DNA of 64,000 nt, taken from positions 248,001 through 312,000 of the forward strand of contig NC_015943.1 of assembly GCF_000223905.1 (NCBI RefSeq), in the 5' to 3' direction. The translations under genes were made by a program, and so were the position numbers. The stretch is from Haloarcula hispanica ATCC 33960 (GTDB lineage: Archaea > Halobacteriota > Halobacteria > Halobacteriales > Haloarculaceae). The notes beneath the pieces were generated by a model. That model was given only the letters and a program-made list of their open reading frames with translations, was not told the origin of the DNA and did no database searches. This document shows positions 21,097 through 37,113 of this stretch, piece after piece; positions within the stretch are counted from its first letter, which is position 1, and each line of letters starts with the position of its first letter.

Positions 21097-21273
21097 TCAG
21101 CGGTCGATAACCTCGCCGTCCCCAACAGCTAGTTCGGATTCGAGTTCGGCGATCAGTTTCGTTCCCTCGGCATGGAGTTCGTTCGCCCGTTCCAGCGAGA
21201 CGTCTCCGTTTTCGAGCTGGTCGATAATCTGTTCGAGCCGGTCGGTCTTGTCGGCGATTGTCTCGTCTTTCAT
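21097..21273 (-). CDS. xseB: Exodeoxyribonuclease VII small subunit
   Basis: A 58-residue protein (ATG 21273, TGA 21097-21099). It is a helical hairpin with the XseB pattern: DKTDRLEQIIDQLENGDVSLERANELHAEG then KLIAELESELA. In bacteria, several XseB copies bind the coiled-coil arms of XseA and activate degradation of single-stranded DNA. Its start overlaps the stop of xseA by 4 bp (ATGA), so the two are translationally coupled. Confidence 0.88.
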   Translation of the reverse strand: MKDETIADKTDRLEQIIDQLENGDVSLERANELHAEGTKLIAELESELAVGDGEVIDR

Positions 21274-22481
21274 AGTGGAAGCAGGATGTACAGGAGCAGA
21301 GCCACAACAAGCAGGCCCAGAGCGAGCAGGACGAGCAGCAGCCGTCGACGCTGGCGGCGATAGGCTGTGGCCTCCTGTTTCCGTTTCCGCTCCTGATCGT
21401 ACTGGGTGCGTGCTTGCTCTAGCCGGTTCTCAAGATCGGTCAGTGCATCGCGAACGTGCGTGTCGTATGCGCGGTCGAGTTCGCCTTCGAACGAGGACAG
21501 GTCCGATTCGGCGGTCCGTCTGTAGGCGTGGGTGAGTCGGTCATCCATCGTCTCCAGCGTCGTCTCGACGGTCGCTGTGTAGGCCGTGTTGAGACGCTCT
21601 TCGAGTGTGTCCAGCTCCGCGTCAAGGGTTGTCCGCTCCGGAACGATGTTGCCTACCTCGGTCGGCGTCATCACCCGTCTGTCGGCCACTTCGTCGGCCA
21701 GTGTTCGGTCGTTCTCGTGGCCGACCCCAACTACGATTGGCGTCTCGGTTTTGTGGATAACACGGCAGAGCGGCGTTTCGTTGAACACCCGGAGGTGCTT
21801 GTCGGACCCACCACCGCGAGTAAGCACGATAACGTCGATCAGCGGGTCGTCATCGAGTTCACTGATCGCACCCATGATCGACATCATCGCATCGTCGCCC
21901 TGAACGCTCGTGTTCTGGATGACGATATCCACGTCGGGATACCGCTCGTGGACGCTGGTGATCGCATCCATCCGGGCATCGCTTGTCGCACTGGTGGCGA
22001 TCCCGATCCGTTCTGGAAAGTCCGGCAGGGCTTGCTTGTGCTCCGGATCGAGCAATCCATCCGAGTCCAGCAGTTCCCTGTTTTGCTCGTAGATCTGCTG
22101 GTACGTGCCCTCACCGACCGCCACGATGTCTTCGACGATGACGGAGACGTTGCCCCCGTCTTCGTAGTACGACAGCGAGCCTTTGACAGCTACCTGCATC
22201 CCATCCTCGATTGTGGTGTCGATTGTCGATCGTTTGTACCCAAAGAGCACGCAGTGGATCGTCGAACCCTCGTGGACCAGATCGAGGTGGACGTGGTCGC
22301 TTGAGGACACACCATAGTCGGAGACATCACCGACGACGTAATCGAAGGCGAGCTGGTCTGCGCTCTCGACGACTGTGCCGATATCCTCGTTCAGCGTATC
22401 GACGTAGGTGATTCGCTCCGTTTGGAGTGCTTCCTGCAGTGTCTCCAGCGACGTGTGCGTCGGCTCCGGCTCCGAACCCAT
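21270..22481 (-). CDS. xseA: Exodeoxyribonuclease VII large subunit with a C-terminal transmembrane helix
   Basis: Start chosen at ATG 22481 (MGSEPEPTHTSLETLQ), 403 residues; the frame is open upstream but lacks similarity. It has an N-terminal OB fold (about 40-120, YGVSSSDHVHLDLVHEGSTI), then the Exonuc_VII_L catalytic core with RGGGSDKHLRVFN, VVGVGHENDRTLADEVADRR and MTPTEVG. A long coiled-coil arm follows with repeated TLEERLNTAYTATVETTLE-like units. The last 25 residues form a hydrophobic helix (LLLVLLALGLLVVALLLYILL) after a basic stretch, which normal XseA lacks. The enzyme would be tethered to the membrane. Exonuclease VII is mainly bacterial, so horizontal origin is likely. Confidence 0.9.
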   Translation of the reverse strand: MGSEPEPTHTSLETLQEALQTERITYVDTLNEDIGTVVESADQLAFDYVVGDVSDYGVSSSDHVHLDLVHEGSTIHCVLFGYKRSTIDTTIEDGMQVAVKGSLSYYEDGGNVSVIVEDIVAVGEGTYQQIYEQNRELLDSDGLLDPEHKQALPDFPERIGIATSATSDARMDAITSVHERYPDVDIVIQNTSVQGDDAMMSIMGAISELDDDPLIDVIVLTRGGGSDKHLRVFNETPLCRVIHKTETPIVVGVGHENDRTLADEVADRRVMTPTEVGNIVPERTTLDAELDTLEERLNTAYTATVETTLETMDDRLTHAYRRTAESDLSSFEGELDRAYDTHVRDALTDLENRLEQARTQYDQERKRKQEATAYRRQRRRLLLVLLALGLLVVALLLYILLPL

Positions 22482-22606
22482 TCGACTCCTCTGTAGTGCG
22501 GTTGTGTACTTAAGCCATGGTACTATCTTGTGACAGCGATCCGGACGACCAGACGCGGCCAGCCAGCGGTGTGCCCTGACCGCATTTTGTCGATTTGTGT
22601 TGCCTC

Positions 22607-22680
22607 TTGAACTAGATGATTGAACCAATTGATTGAACCAGTTGATTGAATCGGTTAGTTGAACAAGTTGCTTGAATCAG
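22607..22680 (+). repeat. 13-bp iterons upstream of parA (candidate centromere/operator)
   Basis: Five head-to-tail units of 13 bp start at 22607, 22620, 22633, 22646 and 22659, with a partial sixth at 22672. The unit is TTGAACCAGTTGA with 1-4 changes; TTGAA opens all six. The array ends 49 bp before parA. Phased direct repeats beside a ParA gene are the usual form of plasmid partition sites or replication iterons. Confidence 0.85.
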
Positions 22681-26013: not shown

Positions 26014-27948
26014 TTACCTAGTTACGACAGAGTCGGTCGCAACATGACGCTCTAAACGCTCGGGGAGTTCGTCCATCTCTCCAGTCTGAATTCTCCACAG
26101 CATCGCGTACAACCCGTCTTCCTCCAGCAAATACTTGTGAGTGCCGCGCTCGACTATCTGTCCGTCTTCAATGACCAGTATCCGATCTGCATCACAGACC
26201 GTTGAGAGACGATGCGCGATTGCTATCGTGGAGCGTTCCTCCGCAAGTTCAGTCAGACTCCGATTGATCAGCAGTTCCGTTTCCGTGTCAACACTTGCCG
26301 TCGCCTCGTCAAGAACGACGACATCCGGATCCTGAAGGAATACTCTGGCAAGCGCGATTCGCTGGCGTTGTCCCCCAGAGAGCTTCACACCGCGCTCCCC
26401 GACTTCTGTCCCGTACCCGTCTCGGAGATTCTCGACGAACTCGTGTGCCTGTGCCGCTCGTGCCGCCTGTCGGACGGCTTCGTCACTCGCCTGTGACTGC
26501 CCGTATCGAATGTTTTCCGCTACCGTGCCATCGAATAGGAATGGCTCTTGGTTGACGTATCCGATGGACTCGCGCAAGCTCCCTAGCGTCACCTCCCGAA
26601 TATCGTGCCCGTCCGCTCGTATCTCTCCGCTCGTCACATCGTATAATCGTAAGAGGAGCTTTGCTATCGTCGACTTTCCTGCACCAGTCGGGCCGACGAG
26701 TGCAACGGTTTCGCCCGGATTCAGCGTGAACGAGATGTCAGCAAGTACAGGTTCGTCAGCGCTCGACTCAGGATTATTTGTCCCGTAAGCGAATGACACT
26801 GTATCGAACTCGACGTGACCATCGATGCTGTCGAGCACCGCTGCGTCGGGATTTTCGGTTACGTACGTGGGTGCTCGTAGGAGTCCACAGATCCGCTTTC
26901 CAGAGGCTTTCGCGTTCTCGTACCGGTCGACGACGTCGGAAAGCTTCGCGAGTGGGTCGGTGAGCCGTTGGGTGAGTAACATAAATACGACGAATGTACC
27001 GACAGTGAGATCACCCGTTAACGGACCTGGTGGCCCGGTGAACACCCAAGTTCCTCCGACGACGAACGTTGCGAAGAGTATCAATCCGGTTAAAAACCGC
27101 ATGCCAGGCCGGTAAACAACACTCAATCTGATTGCACTGATCGCATCGTCGTACAGATCTTTCGCCGCGTTATCGATGCGGTTAGCCTCGTATCCCTTTG
27201 CTGGCGCTGTTTTGACGAGCAGGCTGCCGCTGATCGCGTTCTGCAAACGAGTGTTTAGATGCCCGACTGACGACCGCCAGCCGGCGTATCGTGGCTCGAC
27301 CGCCTGGGTGAACCACCATGTGAAACCTATGAAAAGCGGGAGTGCGAGCAGTGTAATCACTGCGAGCTGGTAGTTGAGATGAAGAAGAATTCCCGTAACT
27401 CCGACCACCATGACACCGATCCGTACCATGTCTTGAAGTCCGTTGTCGAAGAACCGTTCCAAATTGGTCGTATCGTTGTTCAGGATGGACATGACCTCCC
27501 CAGTGTCTACCTCCTCCTGAAACACCGTGTCTAACTCTTGGAACTTCCTGTAGCTGTCCGCTCGAATATCGTACATAACACCGTGGGCGAAATCATTCAT
27601 CATATAGTCTCGGAGCCATGCCGTCAAAGCGACCAGTACGAGCGACCCGCCAACAAGCAAGGCTGAGAGCCAAAACTGACTCGTTGCGTCCGATGGCAAC
27701 CAGGCACTGGGGACGAGAGGAAGTGTATACGCTCCCTCATTGTTAAAGACGGCGTCGATGGTTGTTCCCAGAACTATCGGCGTGACGAGCCCTGCTCCGC
27801 GTGAGACGACACTGGCGAACAATCCGAGTGCTAACCGTCGCTGCTTCGTCCGTCCATATCGAACGAACAGACTACGGAGAGGCTGTTCGATGTCCCGTCC
27901 GAGTTCGTCGATAGTGGACCCGTCCCCGCCTGTGTTCTCCTCTGTCAT
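26014..27948 (-). CDS. ABC exporter (fused permease-ATPase), probable siderophore exporter
   Basis: This 644-residue half-transporter has a six-helix ABC membrane domain (about 35-340) and an ATPase (about 385-620). The Walker A is GPTGAGKST, the signature LSGGQRQRIALARVFL, the Walker B VVVLDEATAS and the switch His in AIAHRLST. Two subunits would form an ATP-driven exporter. It lies 58 bp after an IucA/IucC synthetase gene on the same strand, downstream of an iron-box promoter, so export of the finished siderophore is the best guess. Exporters of this type also move lipids or drugs. Confidence 0.88.
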   Translation of the reverse strand: MTEENTGGDGSTIDELGRDIEQPLRSLFVRYGRTKQRRLALGLFASVVSRGAGLVTPIVLGTTIDAVFNNEGAYTLPLVPSAWLPSDATSQFWLSALLVGGSLVLVALTAWLRDYMMNDFAHGVMYDIRADSYRKFQELDTVFQEEVDTGEVMSILNNDTTNLERFFDNGLQDMVRIGVMVVGVTGILLHLNYQLAVITLLALPLFIGFTWWFTQAVEPRYAGWRSSVGHLNTRLQNAISGSLLVKTAPAKGYEANRIDNAAKDLYDDAISAIRLSVVYRPGMRFLTGLILFATFVVGGTWVFTGPPGPLTGDLTVGTFVVFMLLTQRLTDPLAKLSDVVDRYENAKASGKRICGLLRAPTYVTENPDAAVLDSIDGHVEFDTVSFAYGTNNPESSADEPVLADISFTLNPGETVALVGPTGAGKSTIAKLLLRLYDVTSGEIRADGHDIREVTLGSLRESIGYVNQEPFLFDGTVAENIRYGQSQASDEAVRQAARAAQAHEFVENLRDGYGTEVGERGVKLSGGQRQRIALARVFLQDPDVVVLDEATASVDTETELLINRSLTELAEERSTIAIAHRLSTVCDADRILVIEDGQIVERGTHKYLLEEDGLYAMLWRIQTGEMDELPERLERHVATDSVVTR

Positions 27949-28006: not shown

Positions 28007-29860
28007 TCATGTGAACTCAGCGAGTGGGTTGGGAATGGTACCGTGATGGCGCACTTTCGGGCGCGTATTGGTGTTCGTGTAGCCGTGATCCAGCAACCGA
28101 TTCCGGTTGAGACAGTAGTTCCGGAACCGAGGTCTAAAAAGGTCGATTGCTTCGTACCGATCCTCGTATCTCGGGAACTTTTTGTGGTAGTTTTCGATGG
28201 TGTTCCGAACGTGCTGCCAGAACGCTGCTTCAGTGAGTCCGTGGGTTCGCTCCAGCGCGTCAGAGACAAACCGGAACACACCGTCGAACAGCGTTCCCAC
28301 GATTCGATGACAGAGGAGAATCGGTGGTTTCCGCTTCACGATACTGTGCGTGTATCGGTCATCGTCGCGGAGTTCTTCGGGGAGCTTCTCGATCAGTTCA
28401 GGGAAGTTCCGGTCTATGACCGCAACCTCGTCAACGAAGTCCGTGATCGCAATCCGGGTGGGAACGTCGTCCTCCAGTATCAGGACGACATTCGTACCGT
28501 GCGGCATAAATACAAGACCATAGCGATAGAGACAGTGTAGAATTGGATTCAGCAGAGTCTCCAGAAACTCGGTGAGCCACGTCTCCGGTGTCATCCCCGA
28601 TCGATCGACGAGTTTTGCCACGACCGGCGTCCCATCGAAGTCATCCTCGTACACTGCAGCCAGAGCTATCGGGGACTCGCTGGAGTCTACTGAAGGCGTG
28701 ACGCTCTCTCGCCAGACACACCCGAGTAGCTCGTGAAGTTGGTACGGAGCGTCCTCGAGTTGGCTGAACTTGGGGTGTTCGTAGTTCACACCTGCGATTT
28801 CTCCGGGAAGGACGAGGTTACAATTGGTTCGAAGATACGGATCGTCGTCTAGGATTGACTGTACGAACTCGGTCACACGAGGGGCGGCTTCAGCTTGCTC
28901 ACCGAGTATCCCACGGTACACGTTGGTGTTCAGCACGCGTATGGGGAGCTTCACATGCTTCTTCTCGGGATCCGTGACATTTGAGAACGTACGAATGGAC
29001 TGCTGGGGAAGGTACGTATCGGGACCTTCACCGAGAGGGACGAGCAAGTCGTCCGCGATGTCGCCAGCGAACAGTTGGATAACGCTGTCCGTCCACTGCC
29101 AGTCGTGAACAGGAAAGAGAACGTAGTCGTCCGGATCGAGCCCGTCACTCGAAAGCCGTGACCTGAACGCCTGATACTGGTCCCCCAACTCGTTCTCAAG
29201 GAGTTCTCTCTGTGAGATCCCAGCAACCGACGTGAACGTGGCCCGATTCTCATGTGCCGCGACCCAGGAGAGTGTCCGCTTACGTTTCGTCTCGGGGGCG
29301 TACTTATGGTAGTCGTCGTAATCGAACCCGACCCTGCCTTTGTTATATGTGTACTTGGGATGTCCTTCCAGTTCTCCTTCGACCATTGCGTAGGGGAGGT
29401 CAAGAATCGACTCACGCTCACGGTTATCTTTCGACGCGCGAACGTGTGTGTCGGCGACGAGTGTGTTGTAGTACTCTCTGAGGAGGCGTGCGAGGGTTGT
29501 CTGGCTGGTTCCCAAATACGCCTGGGCGTCGACCAGGAACTGAATCGGATCGTCTGCCGGCTCCGGCTCAGTCCCTGCAATACCGTCACGTCGAATGATC
29601 GAGTCACAACGGACTCGATAGGTTCCGAGCGCGCGCTGATGCGCGTCGAACTGGTACTCGACACCATCTGTCAACCGTACCACGTATCGAGTCCACTCCT
29701 CGACGGGTTCGTCGGATTCTGCGGGGACGGTCCGTGTCTCCGTCGGAGCTAAAAGGCCCTCGCGGGTGAACTCCGCAAATATCTTCCGTAACATAGCCTC
29801 GTTCGCCCGCTTCCAGTGGTCGCTTCCGAATGTGGAGCGTACCGTGTCTGAGTACTCCAT
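28007..29860 (-). CDS. IucA/IucC-type NIS siderophore synthetase (first)
   Basis: The 617-residue enzyme should couple a carboxylate (citrate or a citryl intermediate) to an amine with ATP, forming an acyl-adenylate. Family motifs are visible: GHPKYTYNKGRVGF (residues about 166-179) with the conserved His-Pro and Lys/Arg, the ATP-site LFPVHDWQW, NLVLPGE, FMPHGTNVVLILEDDVPTRIAITDFVDE and a FhuF-like C-terminus (YEDRYEAIDLFRPRF). The length matches the family. The gene is first in an operon with the exporter. Its promoter (TATA-like TTTATATATAA, 29956-29966) is followed directly by an iron box. It is paralogous to the enzyme at 33038, so two condensation steps are expected. Confidence 0.93.
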   Translation of the reverse strand: MEYSDTVRSTFGSDHWKRANEAMLRKIFAEFTREGLLAPTETRTVPAESDEPVEEWTRYVVRLTDGVEYQFDAHQRALGTYRVRCDSIIRRDGIAGTEPEPADDPIQFLVDAQAYLGTSQTTLARLLREYYNTLVADTHVRASKDNRERESILDLPYAMVEGELEGHPKYTYNKGRVGFDYDDYHKYAPETKRKRTLSWVAAHENRATFTSVAGISQRELLENELGDQYQAFRSRLSSDGLDPDDYVLFPVHDWQWTDSVIQLFAGDIADDLLVPLGEGPDTYLPQQSIRTFSNVTDPEKKHVKLPIRVLNTNVYRGILGEQAEAAPRVTEFVQSILDDDPYLRTNCNLVLPGEIAGVNYEHPKFSQLEDAPYQLHELLGCVWRESVTPSVDSSESPIALAAVYEDDFDGTPVVAKLVDRSGMTPETWLTEFLETLLNPILHCLYRYGLVFMPHGTNVVLILEDDVPTRIAITDFVDEVAVIDRNFPELIEKLPEELRDDDRYTHSIVKRKPPILLCHRIVGTLFDGVFRFVSDALERTHGLTEAAFWQHVRNTIENYHKKFPRYEDRYEAIDLFRPRFRNYCLNRNRLLDHGYTNTNTRPKVRHHGTIPNPLAEFT

Positions 29861-29940: not shown

Positions 29941-29954
29941 TTAGGCTAGCCTAA
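29941..29954. promoter_or_regulatory. Iron box (DtxR/IdeR-type operator), site A
   Basis: A perfect palindrome TTAGGCTAGCCTAA lies directly downstream (in minus-strand direction) of a TATA-like element. It is 81 bp before the first NIS synthetase gene. A bound repressor would block polymerase loading or escape. Confidence 0.88.
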
Positions 29955-30117: not shown

Positions 30118-30131
30118 TTAGGCTAGCCTAA
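30118..30131. promoter_or_regulatory. Iron box, site B
   Basis: A perfect TTAGGCTAGCCTAA lies 25 bp before ATG 30157. A pyrimidine-rich, T-rich stretch precedes it, and a GAGGAG ribosome-binding site follows at 30146-30151. It controls the glutamine-synthetase-family gene. Confidence 0.88.
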
Positions 30132-30156: not shown

Positions 30157-31506
30157 ATGACAAAAGAACCAGCTATCCAGTCCCGATGTGCAGAGGAAGA
30201 TATCGACCTTGTTCGGTTGCTCTTCGTCACACAGAGCGGCGCAGTTCGCGCGCAAACTGTTGACACGGCCAAACTGGACGAAGCAATCGAAAACGGAACG
30301 ACCGTCTCACAGTTGATTCAAATGTACAACGCGGTCGGGCGGAGAAACAAGGACGGTCATCTCACGACTGTCGGGGAAGTTCGGCTCCGTCCGGACCCAG
30401 ACACGTTTCGAGCCCTTCCCTACGCGGAGCGAACAGGAGTCATGTTTTGCAACATACAAACGCTCGACGGGAATCCCTGGACGATTGACGCTCGTTCGTC
30501 CCTCCGTTCGTTCTCGCGCACCCTCGAGAGTAAAGGCTTGTCGCCACGAGTCTCCTTCGAGAGCGAGTTCCATCTGTTTGAGCGGAACCCAGAAGGCGGC
30601 GACCAGACTATCGGTTCGCCCGGCGCATATCTTACAGAAAGCACGCGCGAAACACACGGGACGATCCTCCGAGCTATCGATGCTCTCGAGGAACAAGACG
30701 TCGTTGTGGAAAAGTACCATCCAGAGTACGCCCCCGGAAAGCACGAAATCGTGACAGGTCACCAGTTTGGACTCCGTGCGGCCGATGAGCACGTCCTCGT
30801 TCGTGAGACGGTCGACAGCGTCGCCCGATCTGATGGATACCGGGCCACGTTCTTACCTAGGCCGTTTGATAACGCGACGAATGGCTGCCACCTTCATGTT
30901 TCACTCTGGGACGGGGAGACGAACCAGTTCTACGACTCTGGGGATGGGAGCCTGAGCCGGATAGGCAAGCAATTCATTGCCGGTGTGCTAGAGCACGCAC
31001 CAGCACTTACAGCCCTTGCAGCCCCCACTGCCAACTCGTACGCCCGACTACGACCGCAGAACGGTGCAGCAGGGTACGTCTGCTGGGGACAGGAGAACCG
31101 AGAGGCTTTGGTTCGCGTCCCGGCGCTTAAGGCGGGCGATCAGAGTGGGAACTCGTTACGACTGGAATTCCGTGGTGCGGACAATGCGGTGAACCCCTAT
31201 CTCTGCTTGCTGGGACTTCTCGGGGCTGGATACGACGGTGTTGATCGGGGTCTGGAGGTTCCCGAACCACTCTCCGTTGATCCAGGGAATCTCACTGCGG
31301 AGGAGCGGTCTAAAAAGTGTGTCGAGCGATTGCCCCGGACGCTTGGCCAGGCGCTTGACGAACTTGAGTCCGACGACGTGTTGCGGGACGTGCTCGGTGA
31401 CGCGTTGTTCGAAACATATGTACAGGTAAAACGCAGTCACTGGCGCCAGTTCGCGTACGACAGCGCACAATCGTGGGAGATGGAGCACCTACGAAGCGTG
31501 TATTAG
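30157..31506 (+). CDS. Glutamine-synthetase-family amide ligase in the siderophore locus
   Basis: Start set at ATG 30157 because GAGGAG lies 5 nt before it; GTG 30151 overlaps that site. The 449-residue protein has the GS catalytic set: metal-ligand motif FESEF (about 134-138), PEYAPGKHEI, NGCHLHVSLWD (243-252), NSYARLRP (293-300) and RLEFRGAD (335-342). It lacks the tight similarity expected for housekeeping GlnA and looks like the gamma-glutamylamide synthetase branch (PuuA/FluG/GlnA-like). Such enzymes phosphorylate a carboxylate and join it to an amine. Iron-box control and flanking NIS genes suggest it makes an amide of the siderophore or its precursor; the substrate is unknown. Confidence 0.88.
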   Translation: MTKEPAIQSRCAEEDIDLVRLLFVTQSGAVRAQTVDTAKLDEAIENGTTVSQLIQMYNAVGRRNKDGHLTTVGEVRLRPDPDTFRALPYAERTGVMFCNIQTLDGNPWTIDARSSLRSFSRTLESKGLSPRVSFESEFHLFERNPEGGDQTIGSPGAYLTESTRETHGTILRAIDALEEQDVVVEKYHPEYAPGKHEIVTGHQFGLRAADEHVLVRETVDSVARSDGYRATFLPRPFDNATNGCHLHVSLWDGETNQFYDSGDGSLSRIGKQFIAGVLEHAPALTALAAPTANSYARLRPQNGAAGYVCWGQENREALVRVPALKAGDQSGNSLRLEFRGADNAVNPYLCLLGLLGAGYDGVDRGLEVPEPLSVDPGNLTAEERSKKCVERLPRTLGQALDELESDDVLRDVLGDALFETYVQVKRSHWRQFAYDSAQSWEMEHLRSVY

Positions 31507-31622: not shown

Positions 31623-31636
31623 TTAGGCTAGCCTAA
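31623..31636. promoter_or_regulatory. Iron box, site C
   Basis: A perfect TTAGGCTAGCCTAA ends 7 bp before the aminotransferase ATG at 31644. With so short a distance the transcript is probably leaderless, and the site overlaps the start of transcription. Confidence 0.88.
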
Positions 31637-31643
31637 AAAACGC

Positions 31644-33035
31644 ATGTATCGAGAATCCAGCCGTTCAGGGAGAATCCCGCACCGAAGATACGAGCAATCT
31701 AATACCCAACTACGGCAGAGCCAAGAGAATAGAGAGTCCAGCGCGCGGACGTATCCACGAACACTTCCCTTCGCAGTCGCACGAGCCAAAGGTGCGATAC
31801 TTGTCGACGCCGACGGAAACGAGTACATCGATTGCTTGGCTGGAGCCGGGACGCTAGCCCTCGGACACAACCATCCAGACGTGGTTTCGGAGGTGGAGCG
31901 AGTGCTAGCCGAGGACCGGCCCCTCCACACATTAGATATCACGACCCCTGAGAAGGAAGCGTTCGTGGACGCGCTATTCGAGAGCTTCCCGGACGAGTTC
32001 TCGGACACGGCAAAAGTACAGTTCTGCTCCCCGGCAGGAACTGACGCCGTCGAGGCCGCACTGAAATTGGCGAAAACTGCGACCGGCAACCGAAGCGTCC
32101 TCGGCTTTCAGGGCGGGTATCACGGGATGACCAATGGTTCTCTCAGCCTTATGGGAGACACCGATGCGAAAGAGGCAGTTCCGGGGCTTATGCCAGGCGT
32201 CCACCACCTACCATACCCGGACCCATACCGTCATCCGTTCGGGCTGAAGGCAGGTGAACACGAATCTATCAGCCGATTTGTAGAGCGAGTGATCGCTGAC
32301 TCCGAGAGCGGCGTCACCGACCCTGCGGCGGCGATCGTCGAACCCGTTCAGGGAGAGGGCGGCGTCAATCCGGCACCCGACAAGTGGTTGCGGAAGCTCC
32401 GCCGAATGACGCGTGAAAACGACGTTCCGCTGATCGTTGACGAGATCCAGACCGGTCTGGGCCGCACTGGTGAGACATGGGCGTTCGAACACGCAGGAAT
32501 CACTCCGGACATCGTTACCTGCTCGAAAGCGGTCGGCGGCGGTCTCCCACTGGCGCTTGTTGTCTACGATGAGAATTTCGACGTGTGGGAACCTGGCGCT
32601 CATGCCGGAACGTTCCGCGGGCACCAGCTTGCAATGGCCGCCGGCCGAGTAACAATACGGCACGTATTAGAAAACGACCTTGACGAGCACGCAGCGAAGA
32701 TGGGCGAGCAGCTTCGAGAGGAACTCGACTCGCTAAACGCCCGCTTCGATGCGATCGGTGACGTACGTGGCTGTGGGTTGATGCTCGGTGTAGAGTTTGT
32801 CGACCAGACGGTGGACACTGACGATGGAGAGGTTCCCCCGCCAAACAGCGAACTTGCGTCGACGGTGAAGGCGGAGTGTTTTGATCGCGGACTCGTCATC
32901 GAAACCGGTGGCCGTGACTCAGCTGTCGCACGGTTCCTGCCGCCACTCACTATCGACCAGAACCAAGTGAACGAGATTGCCGTTCGTTTCACCGAAGCCG
33001 TCGAAGCGGCGATAGACGAAACAGCCGGGATATAA
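31644..33035 (+). CDS. dat: Diaminobutyrate--2-oxoglutarate aminotransferase
   Basis: A 463-residue class III PLP aminotransferase. It has ALGHNHPDV, CSPAGTDAVEAALKLAK, the PLP-ring Asp in IVDEIQTGLGRTG (about D267) and the Schiff-base Lys in TCSKAVGGGLPLA (K295). The sequence and the cluster match the enzymes that convert aspartate semialdehyde and glutamate to L-2,4-diaminobutyrate, a siderophore building block. It is first in an operon with the second NIS synthetase (2-bp gap). A diaminobutyrate decarboxylase gene, usual beside dat in diaminopropane-based clusters, is not present here. Confidence 0.92.
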   Translation: MYRESSRSGRIPHRRYEQSNTQLRQSQENRESSARTYPRTLPFAVARAKGAILVDADGNEYIDCLAGAGTLALGHNHPDVVSEVERVLAEDRPLHTLDITTPEKEAFVDALFESFPDEFSDTAKVQFCSPAGTDAVEAALKLAKTATGNRSVLGFQGGYHGMTNGSLSLMGDTDAKEAVPGLMPGVHHLPYPDPYRHPFGLKAGEHESISRFVERVIADSESGVTDPAAAIVEPVQGEGGVNPAPDKWLRKLRRMTRENDVPLIVDEIQTGLGRTGETWAFEHAGITPDIVTCSKAVGGGLPLALVVYDENFDVWEPGAHAGTFRGHQLAMAAGRVTIRHVLENDLDEHAAKMGEQLREELDSLNARFDAIGDVRGCGLMLGVEFVDQTVDTDDGEVPPPNSELASTVKAECFDRGLVIETGGRDSAVARFLPPLTIDQNQVNEIAVRFTEAVEAAIDETAGI

Positions 33036-33037
33036 TT

Positions 33038-34861
33038 ATGAGCGACAGGAAGAGGTCACAGGGGCTCGGAGCAAACTGCAAAACGCCAGCAGAGCACGCT
33101 GAATCAGCTACCCTGCATGCACTACTGAACTGTTATCACCGGGAGACCGGTAATGGACGGATCATTTCCGGTGCGGAGGCTCCCGTGTCGGTTCACAGTA
33201 CTGAATCCATCCTTTACGTACCATTCACACAACAGGAGGTTGCGGTGTATGCAGCGCTTCGATACGACTCTGAAACCGGTCGACACATATTTGACCTTCC
33301 GATACACGTCCGTCAAAAGGGCCAGACTTCTACAGTAGACGCTGGAACGCTGGCTGCGTTTATCCGCCGCGAGATTATGTTGTCAACGGGAGCAGATACA
33401 ACCGAGGCGACCGATTTACTGCGACGTATCCTTGTCTCACAGCGCGAAATAGAGCGATTCATTCGTGAACGCAGTGACAACGCTGCTCACTTGGAGAAAC
33501 TCCCCACTTTCATTCGAGCAGAACAGTCGCTCTGTTACGGTCACCTCCTCCATCCGACTCCAAAGAGCCGTGAGGGAATCGCGGAGCACGAGGTTGCCGA
33601 GTATGCACCAGAACTCCGTGGTTCGTTTCAGCTCGACTACTTTGCCGCTGATGCCGAGATCGTTTCACAATGGTCGGCACACGACGAGAGTGCAACCCAG
33701 TGGATCTCGTCAGGACTCCGCGAAGCGAACAGTATGATCCCGCAGCGAGCAGAGTCTGCTCTCAACGATGGAAAGTTACTTATTCCCGTCCATCCGTGGC
33801 AGGCTGACGCCCTACGCTCACGACAATACATGGCGGATGCAATAGACACGGGACACCTGATCGATCTTGGCGAATTCGGTCCCACATTCTATCCTACCTC
33901 TTCTGTTCGGACGCTATGGAGCCCCGAAACTCCCTATATGGTCAAATCCTCGGTAGCCATAGAGATAACGAACGCCGAGAGAACAATACCGCGGTCGAAA
34001 CTTCGGTTAGCAGTCGCCGCTGCCGAGCTTCTCACTACAGAGTACGCCGATCGGCTCAGTGATGCTCATCCGCAGTTCTCGATATTGGCAGACGCTGCTG
34101 CTGCAACAATCGATGTCGGCTCCGGAAGCGAATCGGGGTTCGAGATGATTCTTCGAGAAAACCCATTCAGAGGCATTTCTACGGAGAATACTGCTACCGT
34201 CGTTGCGCTCTGTCAGGATCGACCGTCTGAGCCACCGTGGGTCTCACAGATCATCCAGCGAATAGCACAGCGGGAGGGTCGTCCGGCGTCAAAAGTAGCC
34301 CGTGAGTGGTTCCGTCAGTATCTGAGAACCGTAATTCACCCTGTTGTGTGGTCGTACTTCAAGCTTGGTGTCGGACTGGAAGCTCATCAGCAAAACACTG
34401 TAGTTCGACTGGATGAGGACGGCTGGCCAAAGGAAGGGTTCTATCGAGACAACGGTGGATACTGCTTCCCCAGATCACGGTACGATCTGGTCGATAGCTG
34501 GATTCCCGGCCTGGAAAATCGGGTAGAAACCGTTTGCTCCGACGAAATTATTGACCGTTGCCTGAGATACTATCTATTCATCAACAATGCATTCGGTGTG
34601 ATTAACGCACTGGGTGTCGGCCGGGCTGCTGATGAAACTACGCTATTAAAGGTTCTCCGCGAAGAGATAGCGTCTCTTGTGGAGATCGAGCCCGCAACCT
34701 CCGACCTTCTCTCAGTACTACTCGACAGCGATCAAATACCATGCAAGGGGAACCTGTTTACGAGGTTCGAGGGATATGACGAACTGGATTCGACTTTAGA
34801 TGACGAGTCGGTCTACGTCGAAATAGCGAATCCACTCACAACGTCTTTTAGGCCGTCCTAA
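33038..34861 (+). CDS. IucA/IucC-type NIS siderophore synthetase (second)
   Basis: The 607-residue protein shows the NIS set: GHLLHPTPKSREG (residues 168-180), LIPVHPWQADALR, TSSVRTLWSPETPYMVKSS, the paired GLEAHQQNTVVRLDEDG and FYRDNGGYCF. It differs clearly from the first synthetase (28007-29860), so the two probably act at different carboxylates or on different amines. It follows dat by 2 bp. Its stop codon lies inside iron box D. Confidence 0.93.
   Translation: MSDRKRSQGLGANCKTPAEHAESATLHALLNCYHRETGNGRIISGAEAPVSVHSTESILYVPFTQQEVAVYAALRYDSETGRHIFDLPIHVRQKGQTSTVDAGTLAAFIRREIMLSTGADTTEATDLLRRILVSQREIERFIRERSDNAAHLEKLPTFIRAEQSLCYGHLLHPTPKSREGIAEHEVAEYAPELRGSFQLDYFAADAEIVSQWSAHDESATQWISSGLREANSMIPQRAESALNDGKLLIPVHPWQADALRSRQYMADAIDTGHLIDLGEFGPTFYPTSSVRTLWSPETPYMVKSSVAIEITNAERTIPRSKLRLAVAAAELLTTEYADRLSDAHPQFSILADAAAATIDVGSGSESGFEMILRENPFRGISTENTATVVALCQDRPSEPPWVSQIIQRIAQREGRPASKVAREWFRQYLRTVIHPVVWSYFKLGVGLEAHQQNTVVRLDEDGWPKEGFYRDNGGYCFPRSRYDLVDSWIPGLENRVETVCSDEIIDRCLRYYLFINNAFGVINALGVGRAADETTLLKVLREEIASLVEIEPATSDLLSVLLDSDQIPCKGNLFTRFEGYDELDSTLDDESVYVEIANPLTTSFRPS
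34848..34861. promoter_or_regulatory. Iron box, site D (degenerate centre)
   Basis: TTAGGCCGTCCTAA keeps both half-sites with a changed centre and contains the stop codon of the NIS gene. It is centred 34 bp from site E, about three helical turns, so the pair may bind two dimers. Confidence 0.7.
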
Positions 34862-34881: not shown

Positions 34882-34895
34882 TTAGGCTGGCCTAA
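34882..34895. promoter_or_regulatory. Iron box, site E
   Basis: TTAGGCTGGCCTAA ends 4 bp before ATG 34900. Its position sets that ATG as the true start of the binding protein, since the open frame upstream (from 34876) would put the operator inside coding sequence. Confidence 0.85.
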
Positions 34896-34899
34896 AAGT

Positions 34900-36102
34900 A
34901 TGGACGGCAATAACGGTTCCCAGGAAACACCAACGCGGCGAGATGTCCTCAAGTACGGCGGAGTTGCTACAGGCAGCGGATTGCTGGCGGGCTGTGCCGG
35001 TGTATTTGGATCTGACTCTCAATCCACTCCGGCCAATAATACAACGGAGAAATCAACTGAGACCGCTACTGAATCTACTAACTATTCGGTAACGATGGAA
35101 CCGATAGGTGAGGTAGAGTTCGACTCAACTCCTGATCAATGGATTGCCTACGACGGTAGCTACGCTGATATGGGGGTCGCACTGGGCCAAGCCGATGGCA
35201 TGACCGGTATCGGAGGTGCTGACCGATACTACACACATCTGTACAACGAAATACCAGGTGTGGAGATCGATACCGAACCTATCGAGAGTTATCCAGAGGT
35301 CCGGACAAAGGAAGAATTCTACGAACTTGACAACGATGTCCACCTATACGATCCGCAAATGCTCATTAATTGGTTCGACTGGGATGAGTCGGACATCGAG
35401 GAAATCACCACGAACGTTGCCCCGTTCGTGGGGAACTTGATCTTCCGAAGATCGGACGACTGGCACGACTACCGGTACTACACGTTGTACGAGGCCTTCG
35501 AAAAGGTCGCACAGGTGTTCCAAGAACAAGAGCGCTATGCGGCGTTCAAAGAACTCCACGACGAGTTCATTGCGGACATACAGAGCCAACTCCCGACAGC
35601 CGATGAGCGACCGAATGTCTTCCTTACGTACGGTGTCACGCAGGAACCAGATGAGTTCACACCGTACCGGCTCAACGACCAGGGAACGAGTAAGAAGCAG
35701 TGGCGTGACCTCGGCGTGAGCGACGCACTTGGCGGGACGGACATCGAGAATCAGAGCACTACGGGGAACATGGACCTCGACTACGAAGGGCTACTCGATT
35801 TGGACCCGGACGTGATTCTGTTCCGGAATTTCGCCGAGATGTCGGTCGAGGAGTTCCGAAATACCATCCTCGCATATATGGAAGATCATCCGGTCGGTAG
35901 CCAACTGACGGCCGTCAAGAACGGTCGCGTCTATCGTGGCGGATACCTCCATCAGGGACCGATCCACAACCTGTTTTTGACCGAACAGGCCGCAAAACAG
36001 ATTTACCCCGACGTATTCGGGGACGTGACGGACGACACGGAACTGTTTGACCGGCAGCGCGTCGCGGACATCGTCAACGGGGATTTCTATAGTAACAATT
36101 GA
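34900..36102 (+). CDS. Ferric-siderophore ABC substrate-binding lipoprotein
   Basis: The 400-residue protein begins at ATG 34900. It has a twin-arginine-like start (TRRDVLKYGG) and a lipobox at about residues 27-32 (LLAGC), so it is exported and lipid-anchored. A Thr/Ser linker follows, then a periplasmic-binding fold of the FecB/FepB/BtuF type (PF01497), with PDQWIAYDGSYADMGVALG at the start and LDLDPDVILFRNFAEM, TAVKNGRVYRGG near the end. It should capture the ferric siderophore. No permease or ATPase gene is nearby. The last codons (YSNN, TGA) are supplied by the hairpin repeat at 36087, so the original C-terminus may have been altered. Confidence 0.92.
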   Translation: MDGNNGSQETPTRRDVLKYGGVATGSGLLAGCAGVFGSDSQSTPANNTTEKSTETATESTNYSVTMEPIGEVEFDSTPDQWIAYDGSYADMGVALGQADGMTGIGGADRYYTHLYNEIPGVEIDTEPIESYPEVRTKEEFYELDNDVHLYDPQMLINWFDWDESDIEEITTNVAPFVGNLIFRRSDDWHDYRYYTLYEAFEKVAQVFQEQERYAAFKELHDEFIADIQSQLPTADERPNVFLTYGVTQEPDEFTPYRLNDQGTSKKQWRDLGVSDALGGTDIENQSTTGNMDLDYEGLLDLDPDVILFRNFAEMSVEEFRNTILAYMEDHPVGSQLTAVKNGRVYRGGYLHQGPIHNLFLTEQAAKQIYPDVFGDVTDDTELFDRQRVADIVNGDFYSNN

Positions 36103-36186: not shown

Positions 36187-37092
36187 CTACTGTCGCTCGT
36201 CGTCCAGTCCAGACGACCGTTCCGTTTTGATCTCCTCGGCCCGTTCAAGTACCGCATCGTCGTCGATGTGCTCTACGAGATGGCGGTGACCATCCCGACG
36301 TCGTTTGCGCTGTTCGGATGGTGAGATCGCTTGCTCCACCTTCCGCTCGACGTACTGTGACTGTAGCTCATCGAAACGTGCCTCGGAGAGGTCGGCGTCT
36401 CCAACCCGTTCCGGGAACTCCTTCCGGACGTGTGCTTCCCAATCACCGTCGATGACAGACCCTTCAACGAACACCCAGTCAGTGTAGTGAGTTGCGAGAT
36501 CCTCGGGCAAGCCCTCATCACGCCGCACGTCATGGATCAGTCCGAGCGCAGTCTCGCCCGCTTGTCCTGCGGCGACCACAGCTTGGTCCTCAGCCGTCCC
36601 AAGTCGACCAGCAAAATAGAGTCCATCTACCGATGTTCGACCGTAGCGTTTGTGCTCTTCCCAATTGATATCGACTCCCCCGTCGTCCCCCAGAAATTCT
36701 CCCTCGTCAAGTGTTTCGAGCCACTCTCGCCCGTACTTTGCTGCCGCGACGAGCGATTCAGTTGCATACTCGTCACCCGTTTCAGTCTCAATACGAAAGC
36801 CGTCTTCTGTCTGGGTTGCTTCTACAGCCTTCTCACGCGTGATTTCACAACCGACTCGCTCGGCTTGTGCGTGCAAAAGTTTCTGGAATGTTGGCGTATC
36901 GATTCCGCCAGGGAAGCCAGGAAAGTTCTCCAGATGTGCGATCCGGCCCAGTGATGACCGACCACGATCTAGGATTAGTGTGGAGAGTCCGTATCGACTC
37001 GTAAAAACACCAACTGTAATCCCTCCGACTCCTCCGCCAACAATAACAACGTCGTATTCTCCAGCCACGACCTTTCGAGACTTCTTCGACAT
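36187..37092 (-). CDS. FAD-dependent oxidoreductase, thioredoxin-reductase-like, lacking CxxC
   Basis: The 301-residue protein has a dinucleotide-binding N-terminus (DVVIVGGGVGGITVGVFTSRYG), the TrxR-like LENFPGFPGGI and a second FAD motif (GLYFAGRLGTAEDQAVVAAGQAGETA). No redox CxxC is present, so it is not a thioredoxin reductase. The C-terminal ~100 residues are helical and charged (RKVEQAISPSEQRKRRRDGHRHLVEH). Iron box F sits 8 bp before its start. It may reduce the ferric siderophore or act in its biosynthesis (for example as a monooxygenase); the sequence does not decide. It faces the binding protein. Confidence 0.8.
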   Translation of the reverse strand: MSKKSRKVVAGEYDVVIVGGGVGGITVGVFTSRYGLSTLILDRGRSSLGRIAHLENFPGFPGGIDTPTFQKLLHAQAERVGCEITREKAVEATQTEDGFRIETETGDEYATESLVAAAKYGREWLETLDEGEFLGDDGGVDINWEEHKRYGRTSVDGLYFAGRLGTAEDQAVVAAGQAGETALGLIHDVRRDEGLPEDLATHYTDWVFVEGSVIDGDWEAHVRKEFPERVGDADLSEARFDELQSQYVERKVEQAISPSEQRKRRRDGHRHLVEHIDDDAVLERAEEIKTERSSGLDDERQ

Positions 37093-37099
37093 GAGTGGA

Positions 37100-37113
37100 T
37101 TAGGCTGGCCTAA
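37100..37113. promoter_or_regulatory. Iron box, site F
   Basis: TTAGGCTGGCCTAA lies 8 bp before the ATG at 37092 on the minus strand. The same 14-mer as site E is used. Confidence 0.86.

Follow-up and report, generated by a model that had tools for sequence, protein, structure and literature searches.

The 64,000-nucleotide stretch of Haloarcula hispanica DNA analysed here (the window) contains a gene of the glutamine synthetase (GS) superfamily that sits within an NIS siderophore locus. We consider it on balance likely that its product is a GlnA-2-type gamma-glutamyl-diamine ligase, induced by iron starvation and serving siderophore assembly; the amine, the use made of the product and its role as a chelating arm are what we infer. 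A more far-reaching proposal, which we advance tentatively and regard as doubtful, is that gamma-glutamyl-diaminobutyrate is joined to citrate by the NIS synthetases, which would make the ligase a core archaeal siderophore enzyme and its end product a new class of non-hydroxamate siderophore with gamma-linked glutamate arms. GS-family amine ligases have so far been known from nitrogen and polyamine catabolism, and among the open-licence papers that made up the literature searched we found none that places a GS-family enzyme in a siderophore or NIS route. The activity class is already known from a characterised relative; what would be new, as far as that literature goes, is such an enzyme in a siderophore route of the NIS type under iron control.

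Table 1. Features of the siderophore locus, in window coordinates.
Feature	Position	Strand	Basis or remark
ABC exporter, MsbA-like (TM domain and ATPase), candidate siderophore exporter	26014..27948	-	PF00664 and PF00005
NIS synthetase 1, type C-like	28007..29860	-	PF04183/PF06276; closest solved chains DesD, AlcC, IucC, AsbB
Iron box TTAGGCTAGCCTAA, exact	29941..29954		5' of NIS synthetase 1
Iron box TTAGGCTAGCCTAA, exact	30118..30131		Box ends 25 bp before the ligase ATG
GS-superfamily gamma-glutamyl-amine ligase (GlnA-2 clade), predicted	30157..31506	+	PF00120, NF045547, tree, active site
Iron box TTAGGCTAGCCTAA, exact	31623..31636		7 bp before the Dat start codon
Diaminobutyrate--2-oxoglutarate aminotransferase (Dat)	31644..33035	+	TIGR00709, 515 bits (cut-off 402)
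NIS synthetase 2, type A-like	33038..34861	+	PF04183/PF06276; closest solved chains IucA, AcsD
Iron box, 1 mismatch	34882..34895		Just 5' of ATG 34900, where the SBP probably starts
Iron/siderophore ABC transporter substrate-binding protein (SBP), lipoprotein-type	34900..36102	+	PF01497 (scanned from GTG 34876)
FAD-dependent thioredoxin-reductase-like protein, candidate ferric-siderophore reductase	36187..37092	-	Weak PF07992/TIGR01292 matches
Iron box, 1 mismatch	37100..37113		7 bp before the start of the reductase-like gene (-)

The ligase and its relatives

The ligase open reading frame (ORF) is intact and encodes 449 amino acids on the forward strand, from an ATG at 30157 to a stop codon at 31506, with a Shine-Dalgarno-like GAGGAG stretch directly 5' of the start. 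The protein matches the Pfam family Gln-synt_C (PF00120) with 302 bits and is plainly homologous to solved GS structures; it is a member of the GS superfamily distinct from housekeeping GlnA. Against the NCBIfam model for gamma-glutamylputrescine synthetase (NF045547) it scored 661 bits, above the curated cut-off of 650, and against the GlnA model TIGR00653 it scored 266 bits, below the cut-off of 429. As NF045547 also matches GS-like proteins from catabolic contexts, the model's name does not settle which amine the window ligase uses, and we did not accept putrescine as its substrate on the name of so broad a model.

The first-pass annotation had described the catalytic motifs as intact. This holds for the residues that bind ATP, metal and glutamate, with ten positions kept relative to E. 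coli GlnA (E129, E131, E212, E220, H269, R321, R339, R344, E357 and R359). It does not hold in the ammonium site: D50, Y179 and E327 (E. coli GlnA numbering; window-ligase residues 51, 157 and 303) are replaced by Ser, Ala and Gly, respectively. The same three replacements are found in nearly all other members of the clade described below. At residue 377 of the window ligase, Gly takes the place of Y397, which is adenylylated in E. coli GlnA. The only other GS in the 3.89-Mb genome is a housekeeping GlnA on another contig (C3).

To place the protein we used a maximum-likelihood tree of 47 proteins, from which the GlnA sequences of three loci (L109, L110 and L113) were left out because they were in wrong frames. 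The window ligase is placed in a 19-row clade (the core clade; 100/99 support) apart from both GlnA and E. coli PuuA, and this clade is nested in a larger, iron-linked clade of 30 rows (100/100 support). Phylogeny had been named beforehand as the check on a non-housekeeping identity, and it bears that identity out; with the ammonium-site residues lost, a separate GlnA on C3 and this position in the tree, we rejected an assignment as housekeeping GS (GlnA, EC 6.3.1.2). The suggested kinship with amine-glutamylating GS enzymes is likewise upheld, as the clade holds the presumed orthologue of the glutamate-putrescine ligase GlnA-2 of Haloferax mediterranei (PMC8394153).

That presumed orthologue comes from a Haloferax-type genome (G192), whose core-clade locus has the order MATE transporter, GS, iron SBP, second GS. 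The same order has been described for H. mediterranei glnA-2 and glnA-3 (PMC8394153; locus tags in PMC11218638). Counted from its second methionine, the G192 protein has Cys exactly at position 375, replacing Y397, and Ala replacing Y179, and both Cys375 and the Ala at the Y179 position have been reported for H. mediterranei GlnA-2 (PMC8394153). From this synteny and these residues we infer that the G192 protein is the GlnA-2 orthologue and that G192 is a Haloferax. Recombinant H. mediterranei GlnA-2 (HFX_1688) is a dodecamer that has glutamate-putrescine ligase activity only, with no GS activity, and deletion of glnA-2 impaired growth on putrescine (PMC8394153). Judged by its sequence, then, the window protein belongs to the GlnA-2-type glutamate-amine ligase clade of haloarchaea, and glutamylation of a diamine is predicted. 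The two enzymes share this clade and the loss of D50 and E327, and glnA-2 also adjoins an iron-transport SBP gene and is repressed together with a siderophore operon (PMC11218638). They differ in that the window ligase is about 60% identical to the G192 orthologue and has Gly at the Cys375 position, and in that its gene lies inside an NIS cluster with Dat, whereas GlnA-2 was called an enzyme of polyamine catabolism by its authors. Three loci (L079-L081, in G192, G264 and G214) carry two different GS-like genes per iron locus, along with MATE, polysaccharide-deacetylase-like and RraA-like genes; this gene pair corresponds to H. mediterranei glnA-2/glnA-3, and a single route may employ two amine ligases.

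Among better-known enzymes, E. coli PuuA (gamma-glutamylputrescine synthetase) and Streptomyces GlnA2/GlnA3 are also GS-family ligases that glutamylate amines, and the ammonium-site residues are altered in PuuA as well. The window ligase is, however, only 24% identical to PuuA, and puuA sits with the catabolic genes puuB-C-D while the window gene sits with siderophore genes.

The siderophore locus and its iron boxes

The ligase gene had been noted to lie in an iron-box unit of its own between NIS genes, and both observations stand. An NIS synthetase gene flanks it on each side, on the reverse strand at 28007-29860 and on the forward strand at 33038-34861, and it adjoins Dat; its exact iron box is distinct from that of Dat. 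With type A and type C IucA/IucC synthetases accompanied by a source of diamine, the neighbourhood qualifies as an NIS siderophore locus, and the predicted combination of a type A enzyme, a type C enzyme and Dat follows the scheme of a siderophore in which citrate bears two arms made from a diamine. The gene family of the exporter recurs in 15 of the loci examined. We put the start of the SBP at ATG 34900, as the iron box overlaps the longer ORF from GTG 34876. A second thioredoxin-reductase-like gene with an iron box, also a candidate ferric-siderophore reductase, is found on contig C2 (L130). Outside the cluster, the ORF at 21270-22628 on the reverse strand has a translation that resembles the exonuclease VII large subunit with a C-terminal membrane stretch, here on an archaeal secondary replicon.

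The enzymes that furnish hydroxamate arms were sought across the window's genome. No match to an IucD-type N-hydroxylase (PF13434) was found there, and matches to an IucB-type acetyltransferase (PF13523) were only weak, the best reaching 31 bits against 168 bits for a true member in locus L073. Nor does the genome have a siderophore-type decarboxylase, the PF00282 matches scoring 83 and 20 bits against 209 bits in L073. We therefore rejected a hydroxamate siderophore of the schizokinen or aerobactin type for this genome, given the missing PF13434 and the weak PF13523 matches. With hydroxylase, acetyltransferase and decarboxylase all missing, the product is probably a non-hydroxamate, and the available amine is diaminobutyrate itself. 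The iuc operon of Haloferax volcanii (iucA, iucB, iucD, iucC, bdb and dat; proposed product schizokinen) resembles the window locus in having Dat and two NIS synthetases and in its induction by iron starvation, which for the window is predicted from the iron boxes; it differs in having the hydroxylase and acetyltransferase arms that are absent from the window and in that its operon is free of GS-like genes (PMC7407949). One haloarchaeon has been described whose three IucA/IucC proteins are accompanied by neither hydroxylase nor acetyltransferase, and it was doubted whether its pathway is complete (PMC3102087). The ligase is a candidate answer for such haloarchaeal NIS loci.

The iron box is a 14-bp palindrome, and five copies lie in the cluster (Table 1). 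Shuffled versions of the window averaged 0.01 matches, and five were not reached in any of 100 shuffles. The whole genome has only 11 sites with no more than one mismatch, five of which are those of the siderophore cluster, and a reversed control gave none; several of the other sites adjoin genes that, from their translations, encode iron-type ABC binding proteins, a Fec-type ATPase or the second thioredoxin-reductase-like protein. With predicted operators near start codons that are common to iron-uptake genes, the cluster fits a DtxR/SirR iron regulon, and a regulator of this type probably represses it at the iron box.

Transcript data from H. mediterranei bear on the same question. During denitrification, RNA-seq found a rise of a SirR-type repressor, together with log2 values of -4.05 for glnA2, -4.25 for the intervening iron SBP gene, -5.37 for glnA3 and -6.0 to -7.1 for the siderophore operon (PMC11218638). 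The authors singled out the lowered expression of glnA2 and glnA3 as noteworthy, considered its reason unclear and pointed to polyamines (PMC11218638). A near iron box (1 mismatch) lies 5' of the G192 orthologue, and our analysis suggests membership of an iron regulon as the simpler reading of this repression. The NIS link offers a testable reason for the repression of glnA2/glnA3 alongside iron genes, which the authors had left open.

Recurrence across haloarchaeal genomes

We surveyed 392 haloarchaeal genomes, counting iron boxes with no more than 3 mismatches within 200 bp upstream. The core clade is present in 20 of them (54-100% identity, plus one fragment in genome G097). NIS synthetases occur in all 20 core-clade genomes against 99 of the 372 others (Fisher p = 1e-11, a value that overstates independence given that the genomes are related), and an NIS gene lies within 8 kb of the ligase gene in 18 of the 20. 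The core-clade genomes are spread over five families, so shared host descent is not the sole cause of the NIS association. Outside the 30-row clade, genomes with GS-like genes have NIS in only 2 of the 13 checked. Iron boxes lie 5' of 19 of the 30 iron-linked-clade genes compared with none of 14 related GS-like genes outside it (p = 4e-5, with independence again overstated by kinship), and the neighbours of these outside relatives include M20 peptidase, AstE-like, beta-lactamase-fold and amidohydrolase genes. The GS gene adjoins Dat in nine haloarchaeal loci, the window included (two of these are near-copies, both from one Haloarcula amylolytica contig), and exporters of three kinds (ABC, MFS and MATE) are found in many clade loci.

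A strong IucD match is missing from 7 of 19 core-clade genomes against 6 of 80 others, all with at least two NIS genes (p = 0.003), which suggests a shortage of IucD in company with the core clade, six of the seven genomes being of the window's genus. We rejected replacement of the hydroxylase by the GS as a general rule, since IucD is also present in about seven clade loci. When a contig collection was searched for related loci, a single haloarchaeal locus and a single one from Dehalococcoidia were recovered, so the survey was run as whole-genome searches; a sample of 120 genomes from the phylum, thin for this order, held no close relatives beyond the window's own genome.

Some clade members show signs of decay. 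In L106 (G387:C1), and perhaps in G224:C1 too, a strongly diverged member with E220 replaced by Val and H269 by Arg looks catalytically dead; the L106 gene adjoins genes for an aldo-keto reductase and an FAD-oxidoreductase, the latter common to L083. In L099 (G097) the GS-clade gene is shortened to query residues 166-449 and the genome, which has iron SBP genes, keeps no more of NIS than a weak remnant, so that ligase and siderophore genes appear to decay together.

Proposed role and competing explanations

In the proposed mechanism, iron starvation would lift the predicted repression and switch on the ligase, Dat, the two NIS synthetases, the exporter and the iron-binding transport protein together. 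In the ligase active site, ATP and glutamate would form gamma-glutamyl phosphate, and a primary amine, not ammonia, would attack it to give a gamma-glutamyl amide. The diamine glutamylated would be the one that the locus supplies, in the window's genome probably 2,4-diaminobutyrate because no siderophore-type decarboxylase was found; citrate, which had also been raised as a substrate of the ligase, is unlikely. Through the action of the type A and type C NIS synthetases, citrate would then be coupled to two gamma-glutamyl-diaminobutyrate units, and the glutamyl amino-acid ends would act as chelating arms in place of the hydroxamates found elsewhere. The ligase may in this way supply the missing chelating arm in a genome without hydroxamate enzymes. 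Achromobactin and staphyloferrin B are carboxylate NIS siderophores built without an N-hydroxylase from a citrate core, diaminobutyrate or diaminopropionate, and a five-carbon dicarboxylate arm, which is 2-oxoglutarate added by an NIS synthetase; the window locus would differ in that a GS-family ligase adds glutamate as the arm.

Several findings count against this role. The core clade is lacking in about 99 of the 119 NIS-bearing genomes, so NIS pathways do not in general require the ligase. A hydroxamate hydroxylase, which would make an extra arm unneeded, is present in about seven clade loci, and the G192 gene adjoins an iron SBP gene, not NIS genes. The deletion phenotype of glnA-2 on putrescine in H. 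mediterranei points to polyamine use (PMC8394153).

This last result also favours an explanation that we judge unlikely, namely that the ligase glutamylates surplus or toxic diaminobutyrate, diaminopropane or putrescine from the siderophore pathway and is co-regulated with it while contributing nothing to the siderophore itself. PuuA and Streptomyces GlnA2/GlnA3 serve catabolism, and M20, AstE and amidohydrolase genes are found close to some of the relatives that fall outside the clade. Those catabolic-context relatives, however, are without iron boxes. No puuB-, puuC- or puuD-like genes, which lie downstream of puuA in E. coli, were seen in the neighbourhood of the window ligase, PF07722 matches elsewhere in its genome are weak (21-31 bits), and the NIS linkage and exporters point to synthesis.

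A role in temporary protection seems quite unlikely. Here glutamate would shield one amine of the diamine for a time, leaving the other free for hydroxylation or for condensation with citrate, and would be removed later. In L073 and L074 the GS gene stands ahead of Dat, Ddc, NIS, IucB and IucD, a gene order that would suit such a scheme, as would the amidase gene in L087, L088 and L090; the window's cluster, however, has no deprotecting hydrolase, and the H. volcanii iuc operon yields a siderophore with no GS gene in the operon (PMC7407949).

Dat is an enzyme that uses up glutamate. That the ligase is a second GS or a nitrogen-supply enzyme, furnishing Dat with glutamine or glutamate when iron is scarce, is highly improbable: it shares the GS superfamily (PF00120), but its ammonium-site residues D50, Y179 and E327 are lost, GlnA is encoded elsewhere in the genome, the tree does not group the two, and recombinant H. 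mediterranei GlnA-2 lacked GS activity (PMC8394153).

If synthesis of a siderophore with glutamate arms is the true role, it would explain both the NIS loci that have the ligase and lack hydroxylase and acetyltransferase and the iron-like repression of glnA2/glnA3, and it would predict new siderophore chemistry in genetically tractable archaea.

Loci of the outer part of the iron-linked clade show a further arrangement. In L086-L090 the GS genes are mostly near NIS genes, and several lie beside genes for an HpcH/HpaI aldolase, a MOSC protein and an amidase; this aldolase might serve to make citrate specifically for the pathway, as in that of staphyloferrin B.
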